From: Terriglobia bacterium
GTDB taxonomy: Bacteria; Acidobacteriota; Terriglobia; Acidiferrales; UBA7541
Direction: 5' to 3'
DNA length: 38,568 nucleotides
NCBI GenBank assembly: GCA_020072805.1
Contig: JAIQGC010000018.1
Coordinates: 1 to 38,568, forward strand
The position numbers and the translations under genes are program-made. The notes beneath the pieces are model-generated. The model did not search any database. It was given only the letters and a program-made list of their open reading frames with translations, and had not been told where the DNA came from. Shown here piece after piece: positions 15,135 to 37,063 of the stretch. Each line of letters opens with the position of its first letter. Within the stretch, counting starts at the first letter, position 1.

Positions 15135-15356
15135 GCGAAGATTCCCGCGCCGGCCCCCATATCATTCGGTCCATCCGCACCCGCCATCCAGTTCCCATAC
15201 CAATGCTCAACAATTACGGAGTCTGCGCCTCGCGGCCCGCCAGAATCGCGCGGGACCTGGCGCGCTGCCGGAATTTTGACAGTGGCGGCCCCTGCCGCTT
15301 CTCCCGTACAATAGCCAGGACAAGGGTATCCGCAAGATTACCCGAAAGGCTTAAGA

Positions 15357-15366
15357 AAATCGATTT
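15357..15366. promoter_or_regulatory. Putative LacI-type operator before the first GH144 gene
   Basis: AAATCGATTT is a perfect 10-bp palindrome ending 4 bases before the ATG at 15371, where a bound repressor would block initiation or elongation. The same core, sharing 11 bases (AAATCGATTTA), forms the centre of the 14-bp palindrome upstream of TonB receptor 1 (23219-23232), beside the LacI-type regulator gene. This links the two transcription units to one regulator by inference. Confidence 0.5.
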
Positions 15367-15370
15367 ATCT

Positions 15371-16711
15371 ATGCATACGAAACATTCACGCCGAGAATGG
15401 CTGGCCCGCGCAGCGAGCCTCGGCATGGCTCTCCCCGCCGCCCTCCGCGTTCCCCTCTTCACCTGCCTGGCGCCGCTGCAAGCGCCTTCTCCCGCCATCT
15501 CCGCGCCACCGGGAAACGCGGCCGCACGCTTCACCGCGGATCAAGAAGCGTTTCTGGAGGAGATCGAAAAAGCCAGCTTTCTTTATTTCTGGGAAGCCGC
15601 CGACCCGGATACCGGCCAGGTGAAGGACCGCTGCGGCGCCGATGGCCCGGATGCGCGCCGCGTCTCCAGCATCGCGGCGACGGGATTTGGCCTGACGGCT
15701 CTGTGCATCGCCGATCGCCGCGGATGGGAAGATCCCGCCCGGATCCGCCAGCGCGTGCTGACCACGCTGCGCTTTCTATTCTCTCAGGCTCCCCAGGAGC
15801 ACGGCTTCTTTTATCACTTCATGGATATGCGGACCGGTGCGCGCACGCGCCGCTGCGAACTCTCCTCCATCGACACCTCCCTCCTCATCTGCGGAATGCT
15901 GGCTTGCCGCGCTTATTTTCCGGACGAGGAAATCCGCTCGCTGGCAACGCGAATCTACGAGCGCGTGGACTGGCCCTGGATGCTCAATGGAGGAAAGACG
16001 CTTTCGATGGGCTGGAAACCGGAAAGCGGCTTCCTGAAAGACCGCTGGGACAGCTACAGCGAACTGCTGATGCTCTATCTGCTGGGCCTGGGCTCTCCGA
16101 CCCATGCCCTGCCCGCGGAAACCTGGGACACCTGGGAACGCCCCGCGTATGAATACAAGGGAGTGCGCTATATCGGGTCCGAGGCCCCGCTTTTCGTGCA
16201 CCAGTTTTCCCATGCCTGGTTTGATTTCCGCGACCGGCGCGATCGCTATGCCGATTACTTCGCCAATTCGGTAGCCGCCACGAAAGCGCACAAAGCCTGG
16301 TGCCTGGATTTGGCTGGCGAGTTTCCCGGCTACAGCGAAGATTTGTGGGGGATCACGTCCTCGGATTCGCGCAGCGGCTACGTGGGCTGGGGCGGGCCGC
16401 CGCGCAGAGGGCCCATTGACGGCAGCGTGGTGCCTTGTGCCGCGGCCGGTTCTCTGCCCTTTCTGCCCCAGGAATGCTTGCGCGTCCTGCGCACCATTCG
16501 CGAGAAATACGGCCCGCACGCCTGGAAACGATATGGCTTCGTGGACGCTTTCCATCCGCAAAAGAACTGGTACAACCCGGACGTGATCGGAATTGACGAG
16601 GGCATCACGCTGCTGATGGCGGAAAACGCCCGCACCGGCTTCGTCTGGGAAATTTTCATGAAAGATGCGGATGTCCGCCGCGGGATGGAGCGCGCCGGAT
16701 TCCATCCCTGA
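15371..16711 (+). CDS. Tat-exported Glycoamylase/GH144-family protein, copy 1
   Basis: A 446-residue protein of the Pfam Glycoamylase family, which contains the GH144 endo-beta-1,2-glucanases. The N-terminus has a twin-arginine motif (SRREWLARA) and a hydrophobic stretch, so Tat export after folding is likely. The (alpha/alpha)6-type core starts at about residue 56 (FLEEIEKASFLYFWE). Conserved blocks are VSSIAATGFGLTALCI, HGFFYHFMDM, ELSSIDTSLLICG, WDSYSELLMLYLL, SHAWFDFRDR, EDLWGITSSDS and WYNPDVIGIDEGI. Acidic candidates for catalysis lie in FMDM, ELSSID and YSEL; I cannot assign them. The start ATG follows an operator-like palindrome, and the Shine-Dalgarno is weak. Copy 2 follows after 10 bases. 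Beta-1,2-glucan specificity is a family expectation, not proven. Confidence 0.87.
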   Translation: MHTKHSRREWLARAASLGMALPAALRVPLFTCLAPLQAPSPAISAPPGNAAARFTADQEAFLEEIEKASFLYFWEAADPDTGQVKDRCGADGPDARRVSSIAATGFGLTALCIADRRGWEDPARIRQRVLTTLRFLFSQAPQEHGFFYHFMDMRTGARTRRCELSSIDTSLLICGMLACRAYFPDEEIRSLATRIYERVDWPWMLNGGKTLSMGWKPESGFLKDRWDSYSELLMLYLLGLGSPTHALPAETWDTWERPAYEYKGVRYIGSEAPLFVHQFSHAWFDFRDRRDRYADYFANSVAATKAHKAWCLDLAGEFPGYSEDLWGITSSDSRSGYVGWGGPPRRGPIDGSVVPCAAAGSLPFLPQECLRVLRTIREKYGPHAWKRYGFVDAFHPQKNWYNPDVIGIDEGITLLMAENARTGFVWEIFMKDADVRRGMERAGFHP

Positions 16712-16721
16712 GGCTGCGGGA

Positions 16722-18059
16722 ATGACGCACCGTTTGGACCGCCGTCAACTGCTCTCCGCGTTGGGGAAGGCCGCCGCCGGCCCCTTGCTAGGGAGCGCTC
16801 TTTTGGGCGGCGCGCTCTGGGAAGCGGGCTGCGGAGGGGGAAACTCCACCGCGCCGGCGCCCGTGGGCGATCTCTATCCCGACACGGACGATCAGCTTTT
16901 GGAGGAAATCGAGAAGGCCGCTTTCCTCTTTTTCTGGGAGCAGGCCGACGCGCTCACCGGCCAGGTGAAAGACCGCGCACTAGCGGGCGGGAACGACATC
17001 CGCACGGTATCCAGCATCGCCGCAACGGGATTCGGCCTGACCGCGCTGTGCATCGGAGACAATCGCGGCTACCAGACCACCGCCAACATCACCAGCCGCG
17101 TGCAGACCACGCTCAACTTCCTGCTCACCACCATGCAACCGCTCGGCCAGAACGGCTTCTTCTACCATTTCGTGGACATGAGCAGCGGCGCGCGGGTGTG
17201 GAACTGCGAAGTCTCCTCCATCGACACCGCCATTTTGCTCTGCGGCGTGCTGGCCTGCCGCCAGCATTTTTCCACGGACCCGCTGATACCCGGCCTGGCC
17301 ACGCAGATTTACAACAACGTGAATTTCGCCTGGATGCTCAACGGCGGTTCGACGCTCTCGATGGGCTGGACGCCGGAAAACGGATTTCTCACCTCGCGCT
17401 GGGACACTTATTCCGAACTGATGATGCTCTACCTGCTGGCCCTGGCTTCGCCCACTTTTCCCATTCCGGCGGCCTGCTGGAGCGCCTGGGCGCGCCCCAG
17501 CTACACCTACCAGGGGCTGACGTATGTCTCTTCGGGCGCTCCGCTATTCACCCACCAGTATGCGCACGCCTGGTTCGATTTCCGGAACAAATCCGACGCC
17601 AACACCAACTATTTTCAAAATTCCGTGAGCGCCACGATGGCCCACCGTCTTTTCTGCCTTTCGCTGGCCACGCAATTCAGCGATTACAGCGACGACCTGT
17701 GGGGCATCACCTCTTCGGACTCGAAGAACGGTTATGTCGCCTGGGGCGGCCCTCCCGCCATGGGACCGATCGACGGAACGATCGTGCCTTGCGCCACCGT
17801 GGGCTCGGTTCCGTTTCTTGCTCCGCAGACTATCCATGTCCTGCGCTGGATTCGCGGCCACTATCCGGCGGCCTGGCAGCGCTACGGCTACGTGGACGCC
17901 TTCAATCCGCTTAACTCCTGGTACAACCCCGACGTGATCGGCATCGACGCGGGCATTTCCATGCTCATGGCGGAAAACTACCGCACGCAGTTTGTCTGGA
18001 ATACTTTTATGAAGGACCTCGCCGCAACGGGCGGGATGGCGCTGGCCGGCTTCCACTAG
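16722..18059 (+). CDS. Exported Glycoamylase/GH144-family protein, copy 2 (possible lipoprotein)
   Basis: A 445-residue paralogue of the preceding gene, with most conserved blocks shared (SSIAATGFGLTALCI, NGFFYHFVDM, EVSSIDTAILLCG, WDTYSELMMLYLL, AHAWFDFRN, DDLWGITSSDS, WYNPDVIGID). The N-terminus has DRRQLLSALGKAAAG (Tat-like) and a hydrophobic stretch ending in EAGCGGGNS. The Cys followed by a Gly/Ser/Pro linker suggests a lipoprotein, though the residue at -3 is not the usual Leu. Copy 1 has no such Cys-Gly linker. The gene starts 10 bases after the copy-1 stop, with GAGG nearby, so the two are one operon from a tandem duplication. Substrate expectation is as for copy 1 (beta-1,2-glucan or related). 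Confidence 0.86.
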   Translation: MTHRLDRRQLLSALGKAAAGPLLGSALLGGALWEAGCGGGNSTAPAPVGDLYPDTDDQLLEEIEKAAFLFFWEQADALTGQVKDRALAGGNDIRTVSSIAATGFGLTALCIGDNRGYQTTANITSRVQTTLNFLLTTMQPLGQNGFFYHFVDMSSGARVWNCEVSSIDTAILLCGVLACRQHFSTDPLIPGLATQIYNNVNFAWMLNGGSTLSMGWTPENGFLTSRWDTYSELMMLYLLALASPTFPIPAACWSAWARPSYTYQGLTYVSSGAPLFTHQYAHAWFDFRNKSDANTNYFQNSVSATMAHRLFCLSLATQFSDYSDDLWGITSSDSKNGYVAWGGPPAMGPIDGTIVPCATVGSVPFLAPQTIHVLRWIRGHYPAAWQRYGYVDAFNPLNSWYNPDVIGIDAGISMLMAENYRTQFVWNTFMKDLAATGGMALAGFH

Positions 18060-18085: not shown

Positions 18086-19630
18086 TTATTTTGCGATTTC
18101 CACCAGCGCCAGCGCGTGCGGCTGCAGCGTGAGCGTGAGCACCCCGCCATGGAGAGGCATGACCCTGGCCGCGGGCATCGCAGCAGCCTTGAGCAATTCC
18201 TTGAGCTGGGCCTGCGTGGGATATTTCGGCCGCCCCATTTTTTCGTAGGCGGGCAGCGGCGAACCGTGCTCGCGGTCCACGATAGTTACGCGCGCAGATG
18301 TTGCGCCAGCCCCGGCGAGATGGGCCAGGCGCAGCGTCACGGTCTTGGCCGCTCCGGTCTGCTCCGGCAGAAAAAGATTCCACACCGCGATGGCCAGCGA
18401 GCCGTCCTTCCGCCGCGTTACCAGCACCGATTCCGATTGCGCCTCGATGCGCGTTTCGCCCAGGCGGTGCAGCAGCGCAAACGCGTTGAACGCCGGTTTG
18501 GGAATGCCGCCCGCGGCCAGCAGACCGAATCCGCCGTAGAAGGGCTCCTTCACCACTCCCTGCTCCTCGAAGACATCCGAAAATGTCCAGTAGGCGAGAT
18601 TGTCCACCAACCCGTCGCATTGCCGAATGGTGTCCGCCAGCCACGGCCCCATGAACGCCGCGTCGGTCACTTCCGGCTCGTTCTTATAGCTGGCGTTGAA
18701 TTCGCTCCAGATGAGCGGGAGGTTGGGCCGCGCCGAGGCCTTGATCTGCTCGTGCACTTTCTGCACCGCGCGGCAGACCATCTTCGTCCGGGGAATCACT
18801 TCGTGCGTTCCGAAGACGTCTTCGGCAAGATCATTGCCATAGACGTGCGTGGAGACGTAGTCCAGCGGTACATTTTTCTCGGCGCTGTGCGCGATCATGC
18901 GGTCCACCCAGGCGGCCTGTGCCGTGGCCGGGCCGCCCACGCGGATGCGCGGGCTGACCCGCTTCAGAGCCACCGCCGCATGATCATAGAGGTCGAAATA
19001 CGTGGCGTCCTTCGGATTGCCCGCCCAGAAGTCGATGTTGGGCTCGTTCCACACCTCGAAATACCACTGAGCCACTTCGTCTTCGCCGTAGCGCGCCACG
19101 AGGTGCCGCGCGAACTGCTCGATCATCTGTTCCCACTTGTTCAGGTCCTTGGGCGGGGCCACGTTCTGCTTGTACCAGAAGGCGTGCAGCGCACCGGGAT
19201 CGCTGGTGAGTTTCTTGGGCATGAAGCTGAGTTCGACGAAAGGTTTTACGCCGTTCTCGAGCAGGCCGTCGTAAATCTGGTCCACGTAGGAAAAGTTGTA
19301 GACCGGCTTGCCGTCCTTGTCCTCGTCATAGAAGCCCGCCTCGTCCTGGAAGATGGCGTGGAAGCGCACGTATTCGAAACCGGTGATGCGTTTGGTTTCG
19401 CGCAGGTCGTGGCGGTAGCTTTCGCGCAGGGAGAGGATGGCGCGGCCCGAGCCGAACATTTTTTCCCAGAAGTGCGGGAAGGGATGCGCCGCGGCGCGCG
19501 CGTCAATGGCGATGCTTTCGGCCTTCGCGGCGGAGGCCGGCTCCTGGTTCGGCGCGGCCCCGGCAGGGCCGCAAAACAGCGCCAGCGCGGATGCCAACAC
19601 AGCGAAAACACAAACCGAACGACGACGCAT
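18086..19630 (-). CDS. Exported GH39 glycoside hydrolase (beta-xylosidase-like)
   Basis: A 514-residue retaining beta-glycosidase with a signal peptide (MRRRSVCVFAVLASALALF, cleavage near AGAA). The (beta/alpha)8 domain has the acid/base Glu196 in EVWNEPN and the nucleophile Glu310 in IWSEFN, matching clan GH-A family 39, whose best-known members are beta-xylosidases. A C-terminal beta-sandwich follows (about 390-514). GGAG lies just before the ATG at 19630, which is preferred over an in-frame extension upstream. It lies 69 bases behind TonB receptor 1 on the same strand, with a strong hairpin between, so it should be expressed from the same transcript at a different level. It converges on GH144 copy 2 with a 26-base gap. 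Confidence 0.9.
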   Translation of the reverse strand: MRRRSVCVFAVLASALALFCGPAGAAPNQEPASAAKAESIAIDARAAAHPFPHFWEKMFGSGRAILSLRESYRHDLRETKRITGFEYVRFHAIFQDEAGFYDEDKDGKPVYNFSYVDQIYDGLLENGVKPFVELSFMPKKLTSDPGALHAFWYKQNVAPPKDLNKWEQMIEQFARHLVARYGEDEVAQWYFEVWNEPNIDFWAGNPKDATYFDLYDHAAVALKRVSPRIRVGGPATAQAAWVDRMIAHSAEKNVPLDYVSTHVYGNDLAEDVFGTHEVIPRTKMVCRAVQKVHEQIKASARPNLPLIWSEFNASYKNEPEVTDAAFMGPWLADTIRQCDGLVDNLAYWTFSDVFEEQGVVKEPFYGGFGLLAAGGIPKPAFNAFALLHRLGETRIEAQSESVLVTRRKDGSLAIAVWNLFLPEQTGAAKTVTLRLAHLAGAGATSARVTIVDREHGSPLPAYEKMGRPKYPTQAQLKELLKAAAMPAARVMPLHGGVLTLTLQPHALALVEIAK

Positions 19631-19657
19631 TGACTGGCTCCTGAAATGAACTGTGAA

Positions 19658-19689
19658 AGAGCGCCGGAGCCGCAAGGCCCCGGCGCTCT
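19658..19689 (-). promoter_or_regulatory. Strong intercistronic hairpin between TonB receptor 1 and GH39
   Basis: AGAGCGCCGG (19658-19667) pairs perfectly with CCGGCGCTCT (19680-19689). After one mismatch the stem continues with GCC/GGC, closed by a 4-base loop (TTGC on the transcribed strand). Only three T follow on the minus strand, so it is at best a partial terminator. It could attenuate GH39 expression or stabilise the receptor mRNA after processing. The other receptor gene has a comparable hairpin at 33255-33279. Confidence 0.7.
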
Positions 19690-19699
19690 GCATTCGCTG

Positions 19700-22600
19700 C
19701 TAGAAGGACAGCTTAGCCTGAAACTCGATCACGCGCCCGGCGAGCGAACCGCTGGCTTGGCCGAAGTGCGAGTCGTTGATGGACACGTTGTTCGCGCCGC
19801 GCGCAAAGGGTTTCAGGTTCAGTTTGTTGAAGAGGTTGAAGAAATTGACGCGGAAGTCCAGCTTGGCCCCTTCTTTGCCGATGAATGGCACGGGAGTGGA
19901 CTTGGCCAGGCTCATGTCAATCATCTGGTAGCGCGGGCCGCGGAACGAATTGCGATTGATAAATGGCGGACCCTGGGTGCAGACGTCAAAATAGGGTGCG
20001 CCGGCGCCCGGGCAACCCCATCCGGTGCTGATGCCGGTGAAGTTCCCGTTGGGACTCATGAGCGTGTCATTGCTATAGCTTGTCCCCGCGCCGCCGAGAT
20101 ACGCGGTCGCCAGGGCCGGGCACAGCGAACCCTGCGGGCTGGGCGGACAATTATTATTGGCAACGGGCGACCACGGGAAACCGCCGTGGTATTGGAACGT
20201 GGCATCCACGCGCCAGCCGCCGAAGGCTTTCCCCAGCAGGTCTTCGCGGTGCTTGAGAATCGGCAGATCATAGAGCGCCGTGAGCAGCATGTTGTGGGTC
20301 ACGTCGAAATCCGACGGCCCCCAATCCCAAGTCTTGTTCCCGGGATAGAAGGGGTCTCGTTCGCCGCCCGCGCCTTCCCACGAGCCGCCGTCCATGCTGC
20401 GGCCGAGCTGGTACTTGCCGAAGAACTGCACGCCGTGCGAGAAGCTGCGCTTGGCGCTGATGTTCAGGGCGTTGTAGTGGCCGGTGACGTCGGTGGTCGG
20501 GAAGTAGACGGGCGACAAGACCGGGTTCACCTGCGGGTAGACGCGGTTCAGCCCGATAATGCGCAGCATCTTGCGGCTTTGGCTGCCCTGATAGCCGACG
20601 GTCAGGAAGAAATCTCCGGGCAGTTTATGCTCCACTTCCGCCGAGTAGAGATACACATACGGCGTGCGCACGGTCTGCGGAGCGCCCCAGATTTCCACGT
20701 TGCCGGCCAATGGCAGGCCGGTCGCCGGGTTGAAGGTGGCCGCCAGCAGCGGGTTCGCGGGCCAGCTCAGCGGACTGTTGCTCTGGCCTTCGTTGACAAC
20801 GATCAACCCGTTGTCGAAGGGAGCAGCGGCCCAGCCGCCGATGCTGATATTGTCATTCACGCTCATCGCACAGCACAGCCCCTCGCGGAATAGGAACGGG
20901 GGATTCACGCGGCTGATGGCCGTCATGGTGTCGGTGATGCGGTTATAGGCCACGCCGGCGCCCGCGCGGATAACGGTCTTGTTCGAGAACTTCCCAGGCG
21001 CCCAGGTGAAGCCCAGGCGCGGCGCGAAGTTGTTCTTATCCGCGGGATAGAGGGAGCCGCCCACTTGCAGCGTGGCGGTCTGCAACGGGTTGGGGCCGGA
21101 ACCCAGGATGAGGTTGCTCTGGTTGCCGAATTTTTCGTTGAGCGGAGCAAAATATTCGTAGCGCAAGCCCACGTTGATCGTCAGGTTGGGACGCAGTTTG
21201 ATGTCGTCCTGGCCGAAAAAGGCAAAATCATGCTGCCGGTAATATTTGTGGCTGTCGGTCGGAGCACCCGTCCGCGGGTCAATTCCGATGCCCTCGTAGA
21301 TGGGGGCGCCGTTGACGAATTCCCAGATGCCGTGGGCCACATACACGGGCCGCGCCGCTCCGAATTCGTAGTCGTTATTATCCTGGTTGGCCACAAACAC
21401 GAACCCGGTCTTGAGCGCATGCCGTCCGAAGACCTTGCTGAGCGTATCCCGGAATTCGAACTGGTTTTGCGCGAACATGCCCGGTGAATTGGTGCCCTGG
21501 TTCGCTCCGTACTTGATGCGAGCGCCCGGAACTGCCTCGATTTCAAAACGCGGCAGATTCCACTGCACACCTGGATTGCTGGCCAGCTGGTTGGCGAAGA
21601 AGCGCGTCCAGTTGAACCGCGCCTCGTTGTTCATGGTCGGCGAAAGCGTGCGGCTCCACAGGACCGAAGCGTATTTGTTGCGGGGCTGGAATGCGAGGTC
21701 CGCCATCGGCCGGCCGTTGGCGCCCAAATCCCCGCTCACTCCGTTAAAAGGCGTTATATAGAAACTGAATGCAAAGCGATCCTTGGTCCGCTCGTAGTCC
21801 ACACGGGCATTGTATTGATTCCCGCTGGCGTGGCTGGGCGCGTAGGTGATGACTTTCTGCAGGTCCGGGATGCCGTCCAGACCGCCCCCGGTGGTGTTCC
21901 CGCCGAATATGTCCACATACTGCCCGTAACTCCCCGTGGGTGAGCCCAGGTCCACACCGCCGTTAACCACCGTACAGGCGGAGGCGGACGGCCACACGGA
22001 ATTGAAATCCGCGCAACTGGGCGTGAGCACCTGCGCGATGCGCGGCTGCCAGCCGGTGGCGGTGACCAGATCGCCCACCACCGTGCCGGCGCGATTCGCG
22101 GCCATCCACTGCTGCAGCGCCGCGGTCTCCACATACTGCGCATCTGAAAACTGCGCATCGTTGGTGCGGTTTCCCTCATAAGAAAAGAAGAAAAACATTT
22201 TCTCCTTCAGGATGGGCCCGCCGATGCTGCCGCCGAACTGCTTCAGATTGGTCTGCACTTTTTGCGGCGCCTGGCCGTCCGGACCACCCCATTTGTTTTC
22301 GCTGTTCAACCCCGGCCCGTCGTATTTGAAGAAAGCGCTGCCATGCAGGTCGTTGGTGCCATTCTTGGTGACGATCTTGACCTGCGCGCCGGAATTGCGC
22401 CCATCCTCTGCCGAATAGGAATTGGCCACCACGGTCATTTCCTGCACCGACTCCTGGTTGGGCGTGAGAATGGCCGCGCCGCCCCAAGTCAGGCTGTTCA
22501 CGCTGGTGCCGTCAATGGTGAAGTTGTTGCCGCTGTTGCGCTGACCGTTGGCCGTCACCTGTACCTGGTTCTCCACCTGGAAGATGGAAGTGTTCGAGCC

Positions 22601-23158
22601 GCCGGGGCCGCCCGAGTTGGGCAGGTTGGCCGCGCTGCCATTCGAGGCGCGCGCGCCGTCGCCGAATACACCGGGAGCCAGCTTCAGCAACTCATAAGGG
22701 TCGCGGCCGATCTGCGGCAGCCGGCTGATCTCTTCGGCGGAGACGGTCGTGCCGATATTAGCGGTCTCCGTCTGGAGGGCGAGCGCCCCGGCGCTGACCA
22801 CCACCTTCTCGGCCACGGCGCCCACCTCAAGGCTGGCATCAAATCCCCGCACCGTTTCCGCGGCCACATCCACCTCGGCGCTGAGCGTCTTGAAGCCGTC
22901 CTTCGAGAAGCTGACCGTGTACTTGCCCGGCGCCAGTCCGGCAATGCGGTAGAAACCCTCGGCCGAACTGACCGTCTCATGGCTCGCACCCGTACCCTGG
23001 TGTGTGGCCACGATCTTGGCCCCGGGCACCACTCCACCCTTGGCGTCGATGACCGTGCCCTGCAGCGCGGCGTTGAACTGCGCCGCCGCCGGAAACGCCA
23101 GCACGAACAGACTCAGCACACAAACTGTCGCAACGAGAAATCGCAGGCGCATACTCAT
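19700..23158 (-). CDS. TonB-dependent outer-membrane receptor 1 (Oar-like)
   Basis: A 1,152-residue outer-membrane receptor for TonB-driven import, here probably of an oligosaccharide. A signal peptide precedes FNAALQGTVIDAKGGVVPGA, the start of a carboxypeptidase-regulatory-like domain (about 28-110). The plug follows (about 120-250, with GNNFTIDGTSVNSLTWGG), then a long beta-barrel ending in FQAKLSF with the terminal Phe typical of outer-membrane proteins. ATG at 23158 is chosen because GGGGGAG lies 4 bases upstream; an ATG at 23152 is also possible. Acidobacteria use such receptors without a SusD lipoprotein, and none is present. It heads the receptor-GH39 unit and diverges from the LacI-type gene with palindromic operators in between. 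Confidence 0.93.
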   Translation of the reverse strand: MSMRLRFLVATVCVLSLFVLAFPAAAQFNAALQGTVIDAKGGVVPGAKIVATHQGTGASHETVSSAEGFYRIAGLAPGKYTVSFSKDGFKTLSAEVDVAAETVRGFDASLEVGAVAEKVVVSAGALALQTETANIGTTVSAEEISRLPQIGRDPYELLKLAPGVFGDGARASNGSAANLPNSGGPGGSNTSIFQVENQVQVTANGQRNSGNNFTIDGTSVNSLTWGGAAILTPNQESVQEMTVVANSYSAEDGRNSGAQVKIVTKNGTNDLHGSAFFKYDGPGLNSENKWGGPDGQAPQKVQTNLKQFGGSIGGPILKEKMFFFFSYEGNRTNDAQFSDAQYVETAALQQWMAANRAGTVVGDLVTATGWQPRIAQVLTPSCADFNSVWPSASACTVVNGGVDLGSPTGSYGQYVDIFGGNTTGGGLDGIPDLQKVITYAPSHASGNQYNARVDYERTKDRFAFSFYITPFNGVSGDLGANGRPMADLAFQPRNKYASVLWSRTLSPTMNNEARFNWTRFFANQLASNPGVQWNLPRFEIEAVPGARIKYGANQGTNSPGMFAQNQFEFRDTLSKVFGRHALKTGFVFVANQDNNDYEFGAARPVYVAHGIWEFVNGAPIYEGIGIDPRTGAPTDSHKYYRQHDFAFFGQDDIKLRPNLTINVGLRYEYFAPLNEKFGNQSNLILGSGPNPLQTATLQVGGSLYPADKNNFAPRLGFTWAPGKFSNKTVIRAGAGVAYNRITDTMTAISRVNPPFLFREGLCCAMSVNDNISIGGWAAAPFDNGLIVVNEGQSNSPLSWPANPLLAATFNPATGLPLAGNVEIWGAPQTVRTPYVYLYSAEVEHKLPGDFFLTVGYQGSQSRKMLRIIGLNRVYPQVNPVLSPVYFPTTDVTGHYNALNISAKRSFSHGVQFFGKYQLGRSMDGGSWEGAGGERDPFYPGNKTWDWGPSDFDVTHNMLLTALYDLPILKHREDLLGKAFGGWRVDATFQYHGGFPWSPVANNNCPPSPQGSLCPALATAYLGGAGTSYSNDTLMSPNGNFTGISTGWGCPGAGAPYFDVCTQGPPFINRNSFRGPRYQMIDMSLAKSTPVPFIGKEGAKLDFRVNFFNLFNKLNLKPFARGANNVSINDSHFGQASGSLAGRVIEFQAKLSF

Positions 23159-23203
23159 CTCTCTCCCCCTCACATTTGAAACATTCGCAACCGTAAACCG
23201 ACC

Positions 23204-23219
23204 GTAAGAACGTTCTTAC
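23204..23219. promoter_or_regulatory. Perfect 16-bp palindrome (operator A)
   Basis: GTAAGAACGTTCTTAC equals its own reverse complement and has the central CG common to LacI-family operators. It sits between the predicted TonB receptor 1 promoter and its Shine-Dalgarno, a repressing position. It shares base 23219 with the next palindrome. Confidence 0.62.
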
Positions 23220-23232
23220 TAAATCGATTTAG
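23219..23232. promoter_or_regulatory. Perfect 14-bp palindrome (operator B)
   Basis: CTAAATCGATTTAG is a perfect palindrome with central CG, abutting operator A. Their centres are about 14 bases apart. The core AAATCGATTT is repeated at 15357-15366 before the GH144 genes. The divergent LacI-family regulator gene (23428-24495) is the obvious candidate to bind it. Confidence 0.65.
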
Positions 23233-23249
23233 CATACTAAGTTCCTCCC

Positions 23250-23277: not shown

Positions 23278-23427
23278 GCAAAATGTTGGCTTCCCGGCTG
23301 GATTTCCCGCCGCCTCCTTGCCCCCTCCCCCTCCCTCTCCGCAACCTCCTTTCTTTCCATGACATTAACATCCGCGGCCTATTCCCCTCTTGCCCCCACC
23401 CCGGCTCCTATGCCAGACTGCGCTTCG

Positions 23428-24495
23428 ATGCCTCGCAAAAAAGAGCCGCGCGCCGCAGCCTCCGGCTCAGCCGCGCAATCCATCAGCCAGAAAGCCCTGG
23501 CCGAACATTTGGGACTCTCCCCGGCCACCATTTCTCTGGTCATCAACCGCTCTCCGGCGGCCCATTCCATTCCCCAGGAAACCAAGGAACGCATCTTCGC
23601 CGCGGCCAAGCGCCTCAACTACCGCCCGAATTTCGCGGCCCGCTCGCTGCGCAAGCAGCGCAGCTTCACCATCGGCGTGGTCGTTCCGGAAATCAGCGAA
23701 GGCTACGCCGCACTGGTACTGAGCGGCATCGAAGACCAGTTGCTCCAGGAAGGCTATTTTTATTTCATGGTCAGCCACCGGCACCGCGAGGATCTGCTGG
23801 AGAATTATCCGCGGCTGCTGATGAACCGCGCCGTCGAAGGCCTGATCGCCGTGGACACTCCCTGCCGCCACTCCATTCCCCTCCCCGTCGTCTCCATCTC
23901 CGGATACAGCGAAGCGCCCGGAGTCACCAACATCGTGCTGAACCACGAGCGCGCGGCCATGCTCGCGCTCGATCACCTCTTTCACCTGGGCCACCGGCAG
24001 ATCGCCTTTATCAAGGGACAGGAATTCAGTTCGGACACCGAAGCGCGCTGGAACGCCATCCTCCTGGCGGCCAAGACACTGGGACTTAAGGTACGTCCGA
24101 ACCTGGTGGCGCAATTGGAAGGCGACGCGCCTTCTCCTGAACTCGGTTATCACGTCGCGCAAAAACTCCTGGGCGGAGGGCAGCGCTTCACCGCCCTGTT
24201 TGCCTTCAACGATATCTCCGCGATTGGCGCCATTCGCGCTTTGCGGGAAGCCGGGCTGCGTGTTCCCGAGGACGTTTCCGTCGTGGGCTTTGACGATATC
24301 CAGAGCGCGGCCTATCAGAACCCCGGACTCACCACTGTCCGCCAGCCGCTCCGCCAGATGGGCGTCCTTGCGGCGGAGAACGTCCTGCAGCGCATTACCG
24401 CGCCCGCTCGCTCGGCCTCCAAGAAACTCATCACCGTCGAACCGGAGCTCATCGTGCGCGGCAGCACCGGCCCCGTGAACGCCGGACGGGAGTAA
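23428..24495 (+). CDS. LacI-family transcriptional regulator
   Basis: A 355-residue sugar-responsive DNA-binding protein, presumably a repressor. The helix-turn-helix spans about residues 18-42 (SISQKALAEHLGLSPATISL), followed by the hinge helix region (NYRPNFAARSLR) and a periplasmic-binding-protein-like effector domain with IGVVVPEISEGYAA, HLGHRQIAFIKG, FAFNDISAIGAIRAL and VSVVGFDDIQSAAYQNPGLTTVRQP. ATG at 23428 (MPRKKEP) fits family length; in-frame ATGs at 23410 and 23359 add Pro-rich sequence, and none has a good Shine-Dalgarno. It is transcribed divergently from TonB receptor 1, and palindromic operators lie in between, so local control of the receptor-GH39 unit is likely. Confidence 0.93.
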   Translation: MPRKKEPRAAASGSAAQSISQKALAEHLGLSPATISLVINRSPAAHSIPQETKERIFAAAKRLNYRPNFAARSLRKQRSFTIGVVVPEISEGYAALVLSGIEDQLLQEGYFYFMVSHRHREDLLENYPRLLMNRAVEGLIAVDTPCRHSIPLPVVSISGYSEAPGVTNIVLNHERAAMLALDHLFHLGHRQIAFIKGQEFSSDTEARWNAILLAAKTLGLKVRPNLVAQLEGDAPSPELGYHVAQKLLGGGQRFTALFAFNDISAIGAIRALREAGLRVPEDVSVVGFDDIQSAAYQNPGLTTVRQPLRQMGVLAAENVLQRITAPARSASKKLITVEPELIVRGSTGPVNAGRE

Positions 24496-28603: not shown

Positions 28604-29815
28604 ATGAATTCCGTCCTCGCCCCCAACCCCTCCGCGCACGCCCCGGGGAAGCCATCCCCCGCGATGCTTTTGCTGCACGCGGGCTTCGTGTTCACCGGCA
28701 TCGCAACCGTTCTGCTCGGCCCCCTGCTTCCCTTTCTCGCCGCACGCTGGAGCCTTTCCGACTCCCAGGCTGGGCTTTTCTTCACCGCTCAGTTTACCGG
28801 CTCTCTCTGCGGCACCGCCCTCACCAGCCTGCTTCTCCCGCGTCGCGGCTTTCGTTTCGTTTTCCGCGCCGGATATGCCTTGATGGCCTGCGGAATTGCC
28901 CTGCTCTGGCATTCCTCATGGCTCGGGGCGCTTCTCTCCGTTATTGTCTGCGGCGTTGGTCTGGGCCTGGTAATTCCCGCCACAAATTTGTGGGCCGGAG
29001 AAACCGCCGGAAAATCGCGCGCCGCGACCATCGCTCTCCTGAATCTCTCCTGGAGCGCCGGCGCGATTGCCTGCGCACCGCTCCTCGTCGCCTCCGCGCA
29101 ACGCGGCGGGCCCGGCATTTTTCTGACCGGGCTGGCCGTATCGCTTTCAACCGTGGCCCTGCTGGCGGCATTCCTTGCGGGAGAAGCAGCGGAATCGGCC
29201 TCATCCGTCGCGGAGATTCCCCGGCAGGGCCATTCGCCCGCACCCGGCCCCGCATCTTTTATTTTCCTGGGCCTGCTCTTCTTCCTTTACGTCGGCAGTG
29301 AAAACGCTCTCGGCGGATGGGTGGCCAGCCATGCCCAGCGCATCGGAGGCGGCTCGCTTTGGTTGCTGACTCCATCTCTCTTCTGGGGAGGCCTCCTGCT
29401 CGGTAGAGCTCTTTTGCCCGCAGCGTTAAGGGTGGCTCGCGACAGCGAAATTCTCCTGGCCAGCCTGCTGCTATCGGCCACAGGAACTCTTCTGCTGCTC
29501 ACCGCGCAATCCGGAGCAATGTTGGTCGCCGCAACGGCCGCCTCCGGACTGGGCCTCGGGACAGTCTACCCCCTGTTTATCGCCCACATGACGGCAGCCT
29601 TCGCCACCAAAGCCCGCCGTGTCGGCGCGGTTTTCTTCAGTCTGAGTTCCTGTGGAGGCGCGTTGCTTCCCTGGATGGTCGGGGCCATTTCCGCGCACCG
29701 CTCCTCGCTGCGCGCCGGTCTGATCGTTCCTTTTGCAGGCATCCTTCTCATGCTGGGAATCTGGATGCTGCGGCCCTATTCAACAAGAGCAATTTCGCTC
29801 TTGCGCATGCGCTAG
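28604..29815 (+). CDS. MFS permease (sugar-transporter-like)
   Basis: A 403-residue inner-membrane carrier with 12 predicted helices in two halves separated by a hydrophilic loop (about 195-215, ESASSVAEIPRQGHSP). The N-terminal half starts after a 20-residue polar tail with the helix FVFTGIATVLLGPLLPFLAA and has the loop RWSLSDSQAGLFFTAQF. The second half begins FIFLGLLFFLYVGSENALGG, where an acidic residue in helix 7 resembles fucose/glucose permeases of the FHS type. A proton-coupled sugar uptake role fits the neighbours but is inferred. It is divergent from the TPR gene. Its stop codon shares CTAG with the stop codon of the convergent GH16 gene. Confidence 0.87.
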   Translation: MNSVLAPNPSAHAPGKPSPAMLLLHAGFVFTGIATVLLGPLLPFLAARWSLSDSQAGLFFTAQFTGSLCGTALTSLLLPRRGFRFVFRAGYALMACGIALLWHSSWLGALLSVIVCGVGLGLVIPATNLWAGETAGKSRAATIALLNLSWSAGAIACAPLLVASAQRGGPGIFLTGLAVSLSTVALLAAFLAGEAAESASSVAEIPRQGHSPAPGPASFIFLGLLFFLYVGSENALGGWVASHAQRIGGGSLWLLTPSLFWGGLLLGRALLPAALRVARDSEILLASLLLSATGTLLLLTAQSGAMLVAATAASGLGLGTVYPLFIAHMTAAFATKARRVGAVFFSLSSCGGALLPWMVGAISAHRSSLRAGLIVPFAGILLMLGIWMLRPYSTRAISLLRMR

Positions 29816-30669
29816 CGGGCTGCCTGCTGATAGACGCGCACGTAATCCACAATCATGGATTGCGGAAAGACAGTGGAGGCGTCCGGATCCCCCGGCCAGC
29901 CGCCGCCCACGGCCACATTCAGGAGCAGGAAAAAGGGATGATCGAAGACCCATTTTTGACCCGGGTGGAGGTCTTCGCGGCGGCGCGTGGCATAGAGAGC
30001 GTCATCGACATAGAAGCGGACGACGCCGGGCTCCCACTCGACGGCAAAGAGATGGAAATCATCGGCGAAGCGCTGATTGCCGGGAAGTGCGTAGGGGGCT
30101 TCGAGGCCGCCCGCCCCGGAATATCCGGGTCCGTGGAGGGTTCCATGAACCTTGGATTGCTCCTTGCCGATATTTTCCATGATGTCAATTTCGCCGCAAT
30201 CGGGCCAGCCGGCTTTATCCATATCCTCGCCCAGCATCCAGAAGGCCGGCCACAGTCCCTGGCCAAACGGAATTTTGATGCGCGCTTCGATGCGGCCGTA
30301 GGTTTGGGAGAATTTACCGATGGTCTTCAGCCGGGCGGAGGTGTAGTTCCAGACGGCGCCATCGGGCGCGGCGAGAGTTTCCTTGTGGGCCTGAATGACG
30401 AGGTGGCCGTCTTCCTGGCGCGCGTTTTTCAAGCGGTCCGTATAGTACTCGAGTTCCTGATTTCCCCAGCCTCCTCCACCGAGATCGAAAACCCACTTGG
30501 AGGAATCCACCGGCGAGCCATTGGCGCCGTTGAACTCATCGCTCCAGGCCAGGAGCCACTTGCCATCGTGAGAAGGCCCACTGGCCTGCTTCGCGCCAGA
30601 AACAATGACCATCGACACGGACAACAGAACGAGGCTGATGACGACGGCAGGGGCAAATAAACGTTTCAT
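29812..30669 (-). CDS. Exported GH16 endo-beta-1,3-glucanase-like enzyme (laminarinase type)
   Basis: A 285-residue retaining endo-glycosidase with a signal peptide (MKRLFAPAVVISLVLLSVSM) and a single jelly-roll domain starting WLLAWSDEFNG. The family active-site motif GEIDIMENIG is intact: nucleophile Glu160, Asp162, acid/base Glu165, with the extra Met characteristic of the beta-bulge type found in laminarinases. Upstream are YGRIEARIKIPFGQGLWPAFWML and downstream WEPGVVRFYVDD, FFLLLNVAVGGGWPG and DYVRVYQ. It lies 35 bases after the GH3 gene with GAGG before the ATG, so receptor 2, GH3 and GH16 form one operon. The expected substrate is beta-1,3-glucan or mixed-linkage beta-glucan. Confidence 0.93.
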   Translation of the reverse strand: MKRLFAPAVVISLVLLSVSMVIVSGAKQASGPSHDGKWLLAWSDEFNGANGSPVDSSKWVFDLGGGGWGNQELEYYTDRLKNARQEDGHLVIQAHKETLAAPDGAVWNYTSARLKTIGKFSQTYGRIEARIKIPFGQGLWPAFWMLGEDMDKAGWPDCGEIDIMENIGKEQSKVHGTLHGPGYSGAGGLEAPYALPGNQRFADDFHLFAVEWEPGVVRFYVDDALYATRRREDLHPGQKWVFDHPFFLLLNVAVGGGWPGDPDASTVFPQSMIVDYVRVYQQAAR

Positions 30670-30704
30670 ACGACCTCAAAGACGTCCTGGGCCGCCGCAG
30701 AACC

Positions 30705-33212
30705 TCAGTGTGCCCGCAGCGTGAACTTGCCGGTGAGTTCGATTTGGGCGGCGGAGCTGCCGATATAGAGGTCGAAGTCGCCGGGGGCGGCCGTCCAGCG
30801 GTGCGCCTGTACATCGTAATAGGAGAAGGCGCGGCGATCGAGAAGAATCGAGACGCGGCGGGTTTCGCCGGGCTGAAGAGTAACTTTGGCGAAGCCCTTG
30901 AGTTCCTTTACAGGCCGGGGGACGGTGGCATGGCGGTCGCCCACGTAGAGCTGGGCCACTTCCGCGGCGGCGCGTTTGCCGGTGTTGGTGAGATCGAAGC
31001 TGACGGTGACGGGCTGGTCATCGGCGGAAGATTGAGGAGTCACGGAAAGATTTTTGTAGGAGAAGGTGGTGTAGGTAAGCCCGAAGCCGAAGGGAAACAG
31101 GGGCTTGGTGGCTGATTTGTCGAAATGGCGGTAGCCAAGGAAAACACCTTCGCTGTAGGAAACTTTTCTTTCGCTGCCGGCGGGGTAATAGGTGTCATGA
31201 ACGGCGTTGTCCTCCCAGCGGCGTTCGAACGAGATAGGCAGCTTTCCCGAGGGGCTGTAGTCACCGAAGAGCAGTTGCGCCAGCGCAGTGCCGCCTTCCT
31301 GCCCGGGATACCAGGCGTGCAGGAGAGCCGGAACATGGTCGAGCCAGGCGGAGGCATCCACGGCTCCGCCTGCGGTGACGACGACAACGGTATTTTTATT
31401 GGCCGCGGCGATGGCGTTGATGAGCTCCGCTTGTCCGGGGGGAAGCTGGAAGGTGCGGTCGCCGCCTTCGCTTTCGCTTTCTGGATCAAAGCCGACGGCG
31501 AGGACCACGGCGTCGGAACGCGCGGCCAGTTCCCTGGCCTCGGGACTGACGAGCAGTTCGGGACGAGCGATGCCGAGGCGCACGGTGGGACCGCCCCAGC
31601 TCCAATGCACGGAGAATTCGAATTTGATTTTGTGCGGACCGGCGGACAAGGGGAGGCGGAACTGACTGACCACCGCATTGGCGCGATCCCAATTGTCGAT
31701 GAGCAGCTTATCGTCCACGTAGAGGCGAGTGGCGCCGCCTTCGCCGGGTCCGAGGACGAAGATGAGGTGCTCGCCAGGAGCGGCGGGGGTGAAATAGCCG
31801 GACCAGCGGGCGGAGACGTCGTTCTGGTTGACGCCGTCGCCGAAGCTGCGCTCGGCGTTGATGTGAGCGTCGGTACGGCGAACGGCGGGCGCGCCGGAGA
31901 GAGTGGGATTGTTGAAGTATTCCGCGGCGAGGCCGGGCTGATGAGCTTCCGGATCGACGGAGAAGGAAGTGCTGTTGGCCATTTCAGAGGGAGTGGGCAG
32001 GCCGCGATGGTAGGTGACTTTGGCGCTGCCGTCGAGATGCGTGGCCAACCCTTCAAGAAAACTGACCGCGGCGAAGGGCTGTACGCTGGCGCTGCCGCCG
32101 GCGACGACCTGGGCGGGATAAGCGTCCGGGCCAATCACCGCGAGCGATTTTATTTTTTGTTTGCTGAGCGGGAGAAGATTGCCGTCGTTCTTCAGGAGGA
32201 CCATGGAGGAACGGGCGGCTTCAAGAGCCACGTGGCGCCCTTCCATATTGAGGAGCGGAATGGAGAGGTCGGTCTGCTCGTGGTCGAGCCATCCGAAGCG
32301 CGCGGCGGTGCGCAGGATGCGGCGGACTTTGTCGTCAAGAGTGGCGAGGGAGAGCTTGCCGGAACGGAGCGCGGGGAGAAGAGTCTCGCGGTTCATGAAT
32401 TTGCCGGCGGGCATTTCCAGGTCGAGACCGCCGTTGGCACAGGCCACTCCGTCGTAGGTGGAGTCCCAATCGGACATCATGATGCCGTCGAAGCCCCATT
32501 CGTTTTTGGCGATAGTGGTGTTGAAGTAGTCGTTCTGGGACATGTGCACGCCGTTGGTGAAGTTGTAGGAGTCCATGATGGCGCCGACGTGGGCTTCCTT
32601 GACGGCGGCTTCGAAGGCGGGGAGATAGATTTCGCGGAGGGTGCGCTCGTCGATCAGCGAATCGGAGTTATGGCGGTCGTATTCCTGGTTGTTGGCGAGG
32701 AAATGCTTGATGGTGGCGCTGACGCGCTGGCTTTGCACGCCGCGGATGTAGGCGACGGCGGTGCGCGCGGCGAGGAAGGGATCTTCGCCGAAATATTCGA
32801 AATTTCTGCCGTTCATGGGCGCCCGGTAGATATTGACGCCGGGGCCGAGCAGGAAGTGCACGCCGCGTGCGCGGGCGTCCTGTCCGATGACGGCGCCGAG
32901 ACGCTGGGCGAGATCAGTGTCCCAGGAGGCGGCGAGGCCGATGCCGCCGAAGGTGGTGGAGGGGCCGTAATTGCGCACGCCGAAGGGACCGTCGGCCATT
33001 TTCAAGCGCGGCAGGCCGATGTGCTTGATTTCGCGAATGTAGAAATCGTCGGAGCCGCCGATCAGGTCCACTTTTTCTTCGAGGGACATTTGCTGGAGCA
33101 TGGAGTTGACGCGGGCTTCGATGGCGGCCGAAGAGGGCGGCGGGGTCTGGGAGCGGGCGGGGAGAACGGCGAAAAACAGAAGAATAAGAGCGGAACGAAA
33201 GAACTTTTTCAT
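30705..33212 (-). CDS. Exported GH3 beta-glucosidase with inserted PA14 domain
   Basis: An 835-residue exo-acting beta-glycosidase with a signal peptide (cleavage near ARSQ). The N-terminal TIM-barrel (about 30-310) carries KHFLANNQE and the nucleophile Asp248 in GIMMSDWDSTYDG. The alpha/beta sandwich domain begins at about 330 and is interrupted by a PA14 domain (about 425-550: GLAAEYFNNPTLSG, GATRLYVDDKLLIDNW), which in GH3 enzymes shapes the substrate pocket. A candidate acid/base lies in DPESESEGGDRTF. A fibronectin-III-like domain (about 755-830) ends the protein. GAGG sits 7 bases before the ATG. It follows TonB receptor 2 behind a hairpin. It probably releases glucose from beta-gluco-oligosaccharides; linkage preference is unknown. 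Confidence 0.94.
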   Translation of the reverse strand: MKKFFRSALILLFFAVLPARSQTPPPSSAAIEARVNSMLQQMSLEEKVDLIGGSDDFYIREIKHIGLPRLKMADGPFGVRNYGPSTTFGGIGLAASWDTDLAQRLGAVIGQDARARGVHFLLGPGVNIYRAPMNGRNFEYFGEDPFLAARTAVAYIRGVQSQRVSATIKHFLANNQEYDRHNSDSLIDERTLREIYLPAFEAAVKEAHVGAIMDSYNFTNGVHMSQNDYFNTTIAKNEWGFDGIMMSDWDSTYDGVACANGGLDLEMPAGKFMNRETLLPALRSGKLSLATLDDKVRRILRTAARFGWLDHEQTDLSIPLLNMEGRHVALEAARSSMVLLKNDGNLLPLSKQKIKSLAVIGPDAYPAQVVAGGSASVQPFAAVSFLEGLATHLDGSAKVTYHRGLPTPSEMANSTSFSVDPEAHQPGLAAEYFNNPTLSGAPAVRRTDAHINAERSFGDGVNQNDVSARWSGYFTPAAPGEHLIFVLGPGEGGATRLYVDDKLLIDNWDRANAVVSQFRLPLSAGPHKIKFEFSVHWSWGGPTVRLGIARPELLVSPEARELAARSDAVVLAVGFDPESESEGGDRTFQLPPGQAELINAIAAANKNTVVVVTAGGAVDASAWLDHVPALLHAWYPGQEGGTALAQLLFGDYSPSGKLPISFERRWEDNAVHDTYYPAGSERKVSYSEGVFLGYRHFDKSATKPLFPFGFGLTYTTFSYKNLSVTPQSSADDQPVTVSFDLTNTGKRAAAEVAQLYVGDRHATVPRPVKELKGFAKVTLQPGETRRVSILLDRRAFSYYDVQAHRWTAAPGDFDLYIGSSAAQIELTGKFTLRAH

Positions 33213-33254
33213 CGCGGGCCTCGATCATAATGTCGCAAGAGCGCAGGAAAAGCA

Positions 33255-33279
33255 GGCCCGCAGGGGGTGACTGCGGGCC
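33255..33279 (-). promoter_or_regulatory. Strong intercistronic hairpin between TonB receptor 2 and GH3
   Basis: GGCCCGCAG (33255-33263) pairs perfectly with CTGCGGGCC (33271-33279) around a 7-base loop. On the transcribed strand it is followed by TGCTTTTCC, so it might cause partial termination. It lies between the receptor stop and the GH3 start in a 91-base gap, the same arrangement as in the receptor 1-GH39 unit. Confidence 0.68.
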
Positions 33280-33303
33280 CGTGCTGCTAACGGCTACAGC
33301 AAA

Positions 33304-36300
33304 TTAGAAATACAGCTTGGCGCCAAGTTGCAGGACGCGGGGGCCGCCGACGCCGCCATAGGTGTCCGTGTTGGTCCCCCAGTTGGAGCCCTTCGAGACG
33401 GAGAAAGCGCTTGGCGACCATCCGGCCGGCCCGCTCCCTGCCTGCCCACCGTAGGCCCACTGCCACGGCCCGTCGACATTAAAGTTGTAGTTCTTGTTGT
33501 TGAAATTGGGATGATTGAACGCGTTGAACGCTTCCAGACGAATCTGGAGGTAGCGCCGTTCATTGGAACCCAGCGGAATGTTCTTGAACAAGGACAAGTC
33601 CCAGTCCTGCATTCCGCCGGTCCGCAGCCGGTCGCGTGTCCCCCGTACGACAGTGCCCATTGCAGGCAGGATAGCGTTCCCGCTGCTGTCCAGCGAATAG
33701 TAAGCCTGGATAGCTCCCCACATGTTCGAGCCGTCCATAGCTCCGGACTCCCACGACCAATGATTGGTCAAATCGATGGGCGTTCCAGTCATGAACTGGG
33801 TCACGCCGCTCAACTGGTAGTTATCCGTGATATAACCCAGCCATTTCGATCCGCCAAAATGCTTCGCCAATTTCGGCAGTTCGTAAACATAGTTGGCGGC
33901 AAAGACGTGTGTGCGATCCCATCCCGCGGCCCGGTAATCGACCGAGCGAGGGAGAAAAGGATCCTGGAAGTCCTCGTCGGAATTGGCCGTGGTGAGCGAT
34001 TTCGACCAGGTGTAGACCGCCCCGAGAGTCAGACCTTTGACGAAGCGGCGCTGCAAGGAAACTTGCAGCGAATTGTAATTGGAAGTGCCGTCGAACTGAA
34101 GATATTCAATCTGGCCATACCCTTTATAGGGAACCAGCGGCGCATTGGAGTACGACTGTCTTCCGTAGGCGTAAGCACCGGAGAAATTGTACCCCGCCGT
34201 CGCGTAGACCGCCGGGAGCCCCGGTTCCACCGCCGGAATCCCGCCCGTGCAGGGATTGCCCGGCAGTGGGCTCGCACAGTAGGTCGTGAAGTTGGCCGGG
34301 TCCTGAGCGGCAGTGGTGAATGCATAGCCATAGGGAATGGCATTAATGTCGCGAGCGGTGACCAGGTGGCGCGAGAGCGTGCCGACATAGGCCATATCGA
34401 GAGTGGTGCCGCGGGCGATTTCGCGCTGCAGGCCGAGGCTGAAACTGTACACCGTGGGAACCTTGCCGTCCCGTGCGGCGCCGTAGACGTTGCTGAGGGG
34501 CTGCGTGGCCAGGCCCGCAGCCGCAGCGGCGGCCAAGGAGGGCAGGTTGGAGATGTTATTCCCCCACACGACGGGAGTTTGCACCAGCGCCGCGTTTTCG
34601 AAAACGGTGTTATAGATCAGGTTGCCTTGGGTGCGGTCGTGCATCATGCCAATGCCGCCGCGCAGAACAGTCTTGTGATTGCCGAATAGGTCATAGGCAA
34701 ATCCCAGGCGCGGCTCGGGCATGATGCCGTGACTGTTCCATCCACCCACGGGAGCGGTGCCGTTATTGGTGAAAGTCATGCCGTTGAGCGGATTGCCGCC
34801 AGCCGCTACGTTGATCGAACCGTCGGTATTGATCGTGACCGCATTGGCCGGATTATAGGAGGCCGGGTCAAAGAGGGCGATCTGGTTCCTGGCATCGGTT
34901 TGCGGAGGGATCCAGGCAAACCGCATCCCGTAGTCCAGTGTAAAGCGCGGGGTGACTTTCCATGTGTCCTGAACGTAGAACTCCAGCTGGTTGTAGCGGA
35001 AATAGCCTACTGGACGCGTGTTGGTCTGAATGAATTTGTCGAAACTGCCCAGCAACATGCTGGCAAACGCATCGCCGCAGGAGGTATTTGCCGGGCAGGA
35101 TGCCAAATTGGTGGGACCATTTCCAAATTGGAACTCGCCGTTGTTGTTGCCCCAGGCGACCTGATCCTTACGGTTACGCTGATAGAAAACGCCGAACTTG
35201 AGGGTGTGCGACTTCTTCACCCAGGTCAGGTTGTCGTTTACGTTGATGGTGGTATTGGCCTGGTACCAGGGAGTGGCGCCGAGGTAGTTCCAATTCCATT
35301 GGTTGTTCTTTTCATCCCACCATTGCACGTCGGGAATGTTATCGGCAGCCGTGAGCGGATAGAACAGGGACATGTTGTTGAGGTTGTTCACGCCGCGGGA
35401 GAGGAAGTCGCTGTTGGCGCCGGCGCGGGTCTTGGTCACGCTCGGTCCGACGGAAAATTCATTCAGCAAGTTCGACCGAAGAGTGCTCACCAGATTCAGC
35501 GAAAGATTCCAGCCGGGGTGCTTCGAAGAGCAAGTGCCGGTCATGGAGTAGCCGCTGGCGCAACCCAGTACACCAAGCCCCCCGGGGAGAAGGCCGGAGG
35601 TCGCCGTGTCCGAGTTGTGGATCCAGCGGCCGAAGAGGCGATGGCTGGAGTTGATCTGATAGTCCACGCGAAGGATGTCTTCGCGGCGCGGGTCGCTGTA
35701 GGACGGGTTGACCGAATAATTGTAGTTATTTCCATTGCTGCCGTAGCCGGGGACGTTGGGGAGGGGGAAAAGGTTGAGCAACGTCAGCATCTGGTCAAAT
35801 ACCACCTGTTGCGCGGGGCTGAGCAGATTGCGGTCAATCTTGTTCGTGCCGGGAACGATTCCCGCGCCCGCGATGGCTACGGGATTCCCGTTTTGAGCCA
35901 CCGACTGCGAGAAGTCACCGGTACGCTCGAGCGCCGTCGGCGTGTAAAAGGTGGAAAGTCCCACGGGAATGAGCTGGCGGTAGAACTCCTGGTTCCAGAA
36001 GAAGAACAGTTTGTCCTTGCTCTTATTGAAATCCGTTCCGGGGATGAGCACCGGGCCGCCCAATTGATATCCGATGTAGTTGTAGCGGTATTTGGCGATG
36101 GGGGTTCCGTTTTTATTGGCGAACCAGTCGTTGGCGTTCATGCCTTCGTTGCGGTGAAAAAGGCGGACGTTGCCGTGGAAATCGTTGGTGCCGCCCTTGG
36201 TGACGATGGCGATCTGTCCGCCGGCGGCCTTGCCGAATTCGGCCTGGTAGTTGGAGGTGAGGATTTTGACTTCCTCGATGGCGTCGGGGTTGATCGTGAC

Positions 36301-36960: not shown

Positions 36961-37063
36961 TCCACCCTCCAATGACATTTTTGCGGCGAAGCGCGCGGAA
37001 ACTTCAGGAAGCGCTCGCCCGTCCCCATCGGGCAATTGATGGGCGCATGGTATTGCGGGGAAA

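Follow-up and report, generated by a model that had tools for sequence, protein, structure and literature searches.

The stretch of DNA analyzed here (the window, 38,568 nucleotides) is the whole of contig C91 of a draft genome of 3.98 Mb (G000); another contig of this draft, C101 (L048), has a low G+C content and a codon composition unlike the rest of the genome, and is perhaps foreign or contaminant DNA. The window encodes a LacI-family regulator (23359..24495, + strand), which has both the N-terminal LacI helix-turn-helix (PF00356, 33.7 bits, cut-off 27) and the periplasmic-binding-protein-like sensor domain (PF13377, 115.6; PF00532, 80.1) expected of this family. Divergent from it is the gene of receptor 1 (19700..23158, - strand), a protein with CarboxypepD_reg and a TonB-dependent-type outer-membrane beta-barrel (PF13620, PF25183 and PF00593), whose start was picked by eye inside an open reading frame (ORF) ending at 23173. 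A GH39-type glycoside hydrolase gene (18086..19693, - strand; PF01229, E-value 6.4e-111) lies 3' of receptor 1. A second cluster in the window, with GH16, GH3 and receptor 2 genes (29812-37035), is without a LacI gene; three homologous clusters (L223, L228 and L231) have a LacI relative (58–60% identity) between receptor 2 and GH16, and the LacI gene of this second cluster seems to have been lost in the window.

Two GH144 genes are found on the + strand: copy 1, a predicted endo-beta-1,2-glucanase (15371..16711; PF10091, E-value 2.8e-69) with a Tat-like signal (read by eye), and copy 2 (16722..18059; PF10091, E-value 6.7e-66; its ORF is extendable to 16665). The two copies are 62% identical and are presumed to be co-transcribed. 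They share PF10091 with the characterised GH144 enzymes CpSGL (PDB 5gzk) and XcSGL (XCC2207, PDB 8xul) (PMC12102758); the latter is the best solved relative of copy 1, and alignment to it is significant across the full domain. By PF10091 and this homology we place the pair in GH144 and predict that it hydrolyzes beta-1,2-glucan. That XCC2207 came out as this relative had raised the suspicion of a GH194 label, which was dropped, since the same paper, on new beta-1,2-glucanase families, names the protein XcSGL and assigns it to GH144. By eye, a -10-like TACAAT (15307..15312, + strand), conserved in the alignment with the genome G007, is a candidate promoter element of the GH144 pair.

Exact search found the 10-mer AAATCGATTT exactly twice in the window (15357-15366 and 23221-23230), in agreement with the earlier note, which had reported that it recurs 4 bases before the GH144 ATG, about 8 kb away, with no further copy noticed in the intergenic stretches read. 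The first copy ends 4 nt 5' of ATG 15371 of GH144 copy 1, within the putative operator GAAAATCGATTTAT (15355..15368, unstranded), an imperfect palindrome (AAAATCGATTTA). The other, 7.9 kb from it, is the core of operator B, CTAAATCGATTTAG (23219..23232, unstranded), a 14-bp perfect palindrome in the region that separates lacI from the divergently oriented receptor 1; an even palindrome with a central CG near the gene of its own regulator is the form expected of a LacI-family operator. Operator B is abutted by what looks by eye like a -10 element, TATGCT (23231..23236, - strand, i.e., the strand of receptor 1). It is also adjoined by 'operator A' (GTAAGAACGTTCTTAC, 23204..23219, unstranded), a 16-bp perfect palindrome at a centre-to-centre distance of 14 bp. 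The exact 12-mer core of 'operator A' is unique in the genome; with up to two mismatches it is not enriched (98 places versus 105 for the control) and it does not recur at the regulator's other sites in G000, so we rejected it as a second shared operator.

In dinucleotide shuffles the expected number of copies of AAATCGATTT had a mean of 0.04, and two or more copies were reached in none of 100. The 10-mer alone is nevertheless weak evidence, weaker than the shuffles suggest, because the whole genome (3.98 Mb) contains 13 exact copies, and 10 of them are coding and mostly read K/E-I-D-F (coding status was called from open frames and codon-position composition). The three non-coding copies are the two window sites and C47:81662, which sits 37 bp 5' of a 6-phosphofructokinase gene. 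Counting degenerate copies gave no support either: the 12-mer TAAATCGATTTA with up to two mismatches is not enriched in G000 (54 places versus 56 for the reversed control), and degenerate forms of the motif are fewer than their controls (38 versus 93 in G000, 26 versus 46 in G007). We therefore dropped motif counting as evidence; what supports a putative operator at GH144 is its conservation, its rank with a matrix and the way the operator covaries with the recognition helix. As a side observation, TAAATCGATTTA is found in the coding start (KSIY) of a small secreted-protein gene in G012, G027 and G015 (L059, L077 and L080); this gene family has no visible tie to glucan use, the match is probably a coding chance, and it calls for caution with motif counts.

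We searched for the LacI protein in 61 genomes (its own and 60 relatives), of which 39 gave a match at 1e-60, and fetched 30 loci; almost all named relatives retrieved with the regulator are assemblies of Acidobacteriota, including one labelled Candidatus Acidiferrum typicum. The palindrome TAAA(T/C)CGATTTA (TAAATCGATTTA or TAAACCGATTTA), with at most one mismatch, occurs within 600 bp upstream of 24 of 27 lacI orthologues in other genomes (LacI identity at least 63%), or 25 of 28 when the window's own locus is included. The same search found no operator at the lacI loci of G033, G003 and G045, nor at two LacI homologues of 54% identity. About 200 bp upstream of lacI in G045 (L038), two direct repeats of TTACTAAATCG, 13 bp apart, are found in the place of the palindrome; they are perhaps a diverged operator. 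Summed over the table for 36 genomes of the genus, strand matches number 64 for TAAAYCGATTTA and 12 for the control. All 16 loci whose LacI protein has a QAA/KTA recognition helix have TAAACCGATTTA, and 9 of 10 with a PAT, VAT or TAT helix have TAAATCGATTTA or T/A-type variants (the remaining one has no site); two more loci without a site have a TAS helix and an unread helix, respectively. Across these loci the predicted operator covaries with the recognition helix of the LacI protein; each helix group is possibly one clade, and therefore the covariation may amount to one or two events.

A matrix was built from 24 operator sites of other genomes, with the window's genome left out of training. 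Its best places in the window are 23219 (26.4), 15355 (18.0) and, in third rank, 2821 (11.4); under a Markov model built on the window's non-coding pieces, chance would give 1.5 places per Mb of non-coding DNA at a score of 17.9, and 5.6 places per Mb at a score of 15. We then took the best matrix score between -400 and +30 of the estimated GH144 start in 30 loci. Four loci score at least 15, i.e., G033 (26.0, at -187), G007 (18.3, at -9), G000 (18.0, at -9) and G001 (15.4, at -51), followed by G004 (13.8) and a next score of 3.1. The G007 cluster has the same gene order as the window (lacI, receptor, GH39, two GH144), and its GH144 site has the same core (AAGAAAATCGATTTA) at the same position with diverged flanks; given the close relationship of G007 and G000, their sites do not count as fully independent. 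Three other genomes with the lacI-receptor-GH39-GH144 layout of the window (G013, G022 and G037) have no GH144 site, the best places in 700 bp having 4–5 mismatches. Among 80 named loci, 17 have a GH3-GH144 operon that is transcribed divergently from lacI, and the operator lies in the gap between the two; in these loci the receptor, where present, is convergent, with a site of its own in some (L189, L194 and L197). GH144 thus appears to come under the operator by two routes, an own site (the window type) and inclusion with GH3 in an operon that follows the operator of lacI. Of the predicted LacI-family sites surveyed, more than 75% are located between 140 and 30 bp upstream and less than 1% in coding regions (PMC4052901); the position at GH144 copy 1, 4 nt before the start codon, is unusual for a LacI-family site. 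Joint control by the LacI protein of the GH144 pair and of the unit made up of lacI and receptor 1-GH39, in line with the central proposal of the earlier note, is well supported by the operator at the lacI orthologues and by the related GH144 sites in G007, G033 and G001.

The most serious competing explanation is that 15357 is a KID(L/F)-type 10-mer without a regulatory role, and that the site between lacI and receptor 1 is alone real. The coding location of most genomic copies fits this explanation, as does the absence of a GH144 site in G013, G022 and G037. Furthermore, the window's frame is open through the site and would read LKKIDLS, and the GH144 genes of G007 and G001 begin 5' of the site, which there encodes PKKIDL and PKKTDL, respectively; because the site lies within an open frame in these two genomes, coding constraint could contribute. 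On the other side, 15355 ranks second in the window with an independently trained matrix, and G033 has a full palindrome 187 bp 5' of its estimated GH144 start. The site in the window is also probably untranslated, since no canonical start codon is found between an ATG 168 nt upstream and ATG 15371. Finally, the motif retains TTA, a rare codon for leucine, in the window, G007 and G001, although among the leucine codons of the genes sampled TTA accounts for only 1.0%, 0.8% and 4.3%, respectively; we read this as a double constraint, coding plus operator. Taken with this evidence, a chance or coding match is unlikely, with a modest probability left to it.

Two further explanations accept the site as regulatory. 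One holds that a different regulator reads the palindrome, and 'operator A' does show that other palindromes exist beside the lacI site. However, no second LacI-type protein exceeds the Pfam cut-off in this genome (the scan gave one in G000, three in G007 and none in G009), and the operator covaries with the recognition helix of this very protein. In the 80 named loci, sites scoring at least 14 are found beside LacI proteins of at least 62% identity and none beside those below 60%, except for two places in L246, a distant locus (52%); another reader of the palindrome is thus very improbable. The other holds that the site serves mainly the divergent GH31 gene, which shares one intergenic stretch with GH144, and GH144 only incidentally. 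The site lies 4 nt from GH144 but about 250 bp away from where GH31 starts, no second site is present, and G007 retains the GH144 site although the gene upstream of its pair is a symporter gene with its own operator and not GH31. These findings make a main role at GH31 highly unlikely, and the possible GH31 control raised in the earlier note is not supported. We consider it likely, with good confidence, that the LacI-family protein encoded at 23359-24495 uses the 15357 site as an operator.

Sites elsewhere in G000 point to two more targets. TAAAACGATTTA at C103:2270 (score 21.3) lies between a hydrolase gene, assigned to GH30 by eye, and a gene for a sodium:solute (sodium:sugar) symporter (PF00474); the G007 orthologue of the symporter is 92% identical and neighbours the GH144 pair, and TAAAACGATTTA is found at -62 from it. 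Of 30 symporter matches, 29 upstream regions were examined, and scores above 15 were found in G000 and G007 only (the other 27 are at most 14.4). The phosphofructokinase site scores 24.9 in G000, 19.8 in G007 and 12.7 in G009; among 20 upstream regions examined, from 34 genomes with a match, the other 17 score at most 4.7, so phosphofructokinase was rejected as a genus-wide target. In G007, TAAAACGATTTA is also found 165 bp 5' of a GAPDH gene (C104; L253 1501-1512; score 22.4), which is the only score above 15 among 29 GAPDH upstream regions (of 31 matches); G000 has no such site. In the close relative G009, no LacI protein exceeds the Pfam cut-off and the GH144 search gave no match at 1e-60; the symporter (-7.5) and GAPDH (-10.2) sites are absent there as well. 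Sites maintained by the regulator should show such a pattern, being absent or weak where it is absent; if the regulon was enlarged in the G000/G007 lineage, the G009 phosphofructokinase site would be a weak remnant. The predicted regulon is wider than the earlier note had proposed, taking in phosphofructokinase and the sodium:sugar symporter, both unlinked to the cluster.

A large genome-wide regulon was rejected. TAAANCGNTTTA occurs at four exact places in G000; three are promoter sites, whereas the fourth (C51:861, 17.8), on a small contig, has no convincing gene adjoining. One-mismatch places are mostly intragenic or low-scoring. Besides C51:861, three genomic sites that score about as high as the GH144 site fall within coding sequence, which counts against the GH144 site. 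The supported target units in G000 are four (lacI/receptor 1-GH39, the GH144 pair, the symporter and phosphofructokinase), as opposed to the many genes in several pathways controlled by a global LacI-type regulator.

From the observed sites, their conservation, the helix covariation and the uniqueness of the regulator in its genome, we propose the following mechanism, in which binding, its sign, the inducer and the exact promoters are predicted. Without inducer, a LacI dimer would bind the 12-bp palindrome TAAATCGATTTA, whose central CG is typical of the family. By eye, several sites lie directly 3' of -10-like elements in the direction of the target: at receptor 1 (TATGCT), at phosphofructokinase in G000 (TATAAT), at the symporter (TATAAG) and at GAPDH in G007 (TATAGC). 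Repression is the likeliest sign, because a dimer placed after a -10-like element would cover the transcription start; at the lacI/receptor 1 site the dimer would abut TATGCT. At the start of GH144 copy 1 it would sit 3' of the conserved TACAAT and probably block initiation or early elongation. Since TACAAT is about 45 bp 5' of this operator, we propose an early-elongation block; alternatively, transcription may start inside the operator. The inducer would be a beta-1,2-glucan oligosaccharide or its glucose product, and upon release the receptor, GH39, the GH144 pair, the symporter and 6-phosphofructokinase would be induced together. With confidence only slightly above even, we favor the fuller reading that this protein is a beta-1,2-glucan repressor, the sole LacI-type protein of its genome, whose regulon was enlarged in the G000/G007 lineage such that polymer degradation and uptake are tied to glycolysis, and whose GH144 operator is double-coded, extending over the beginning of the reading frame.

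Parts of this arrangement have counterparts elsewhere. In Listeria innocua, the LacI-type lin1838 has been proposed as the regulator of a beta-1,2-glucan cluster (lin1838-lin1843), which shares with the present locus a LacI-type gene within a beta-1,2-glucan cluster; its accessible description includes a GH3 beta-glucosidase and a transporter for beta-1,2-glucan oligosaccharides but no operator, and it has an ABC transporter and a phosphorylase, whereas the locus described here has an outer-membrane receptor and GH144 (PMC3960220). The even palindrome with a central CG, the location near the regulator gene and the sugar catabolic targets are as in the local LacI-family sugar regulons of Ravcheev et al. 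2014, but the targets here include a GH144 pair and an outer-membrane receptor; that survey covers seven phyla, and its main text does not include Acidobacteria (PMC4052901). A glycolytic target (phosphofructokinase here, plus GAPDH in G007) is a feature in common with FruR/Cra, CcpA, GapR, PckR and GluR as described there, although here one or two glycolytic genes and few sites per genome are involved (PMC4052901). None of the tests made here indicated orthology of the regulator to any of these five. Our literature search, which covered few subscription journals, found no described LacI regulon of this type in Acidobacteria. A LacI-type sugar regulon is an ordinary type of control, newly mapped in Acidobacteriota.

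Beta-1,2-glucan is a polymer made by other bacteria, and the phylum is abundant in soil; to our knowledge, the regulators of Acidobacteriota have been little studied. The predictions name an operator, a regulator and a set of targets through which the use of beta-1,2-glucan in Acidobacteriota can be tested. They may also offer a clean case of a local sugar regulon gaining members, a glycolytic gene included, because there is one LacI-type protein here and none in a close relative, and the operator changes with the recognition helix.
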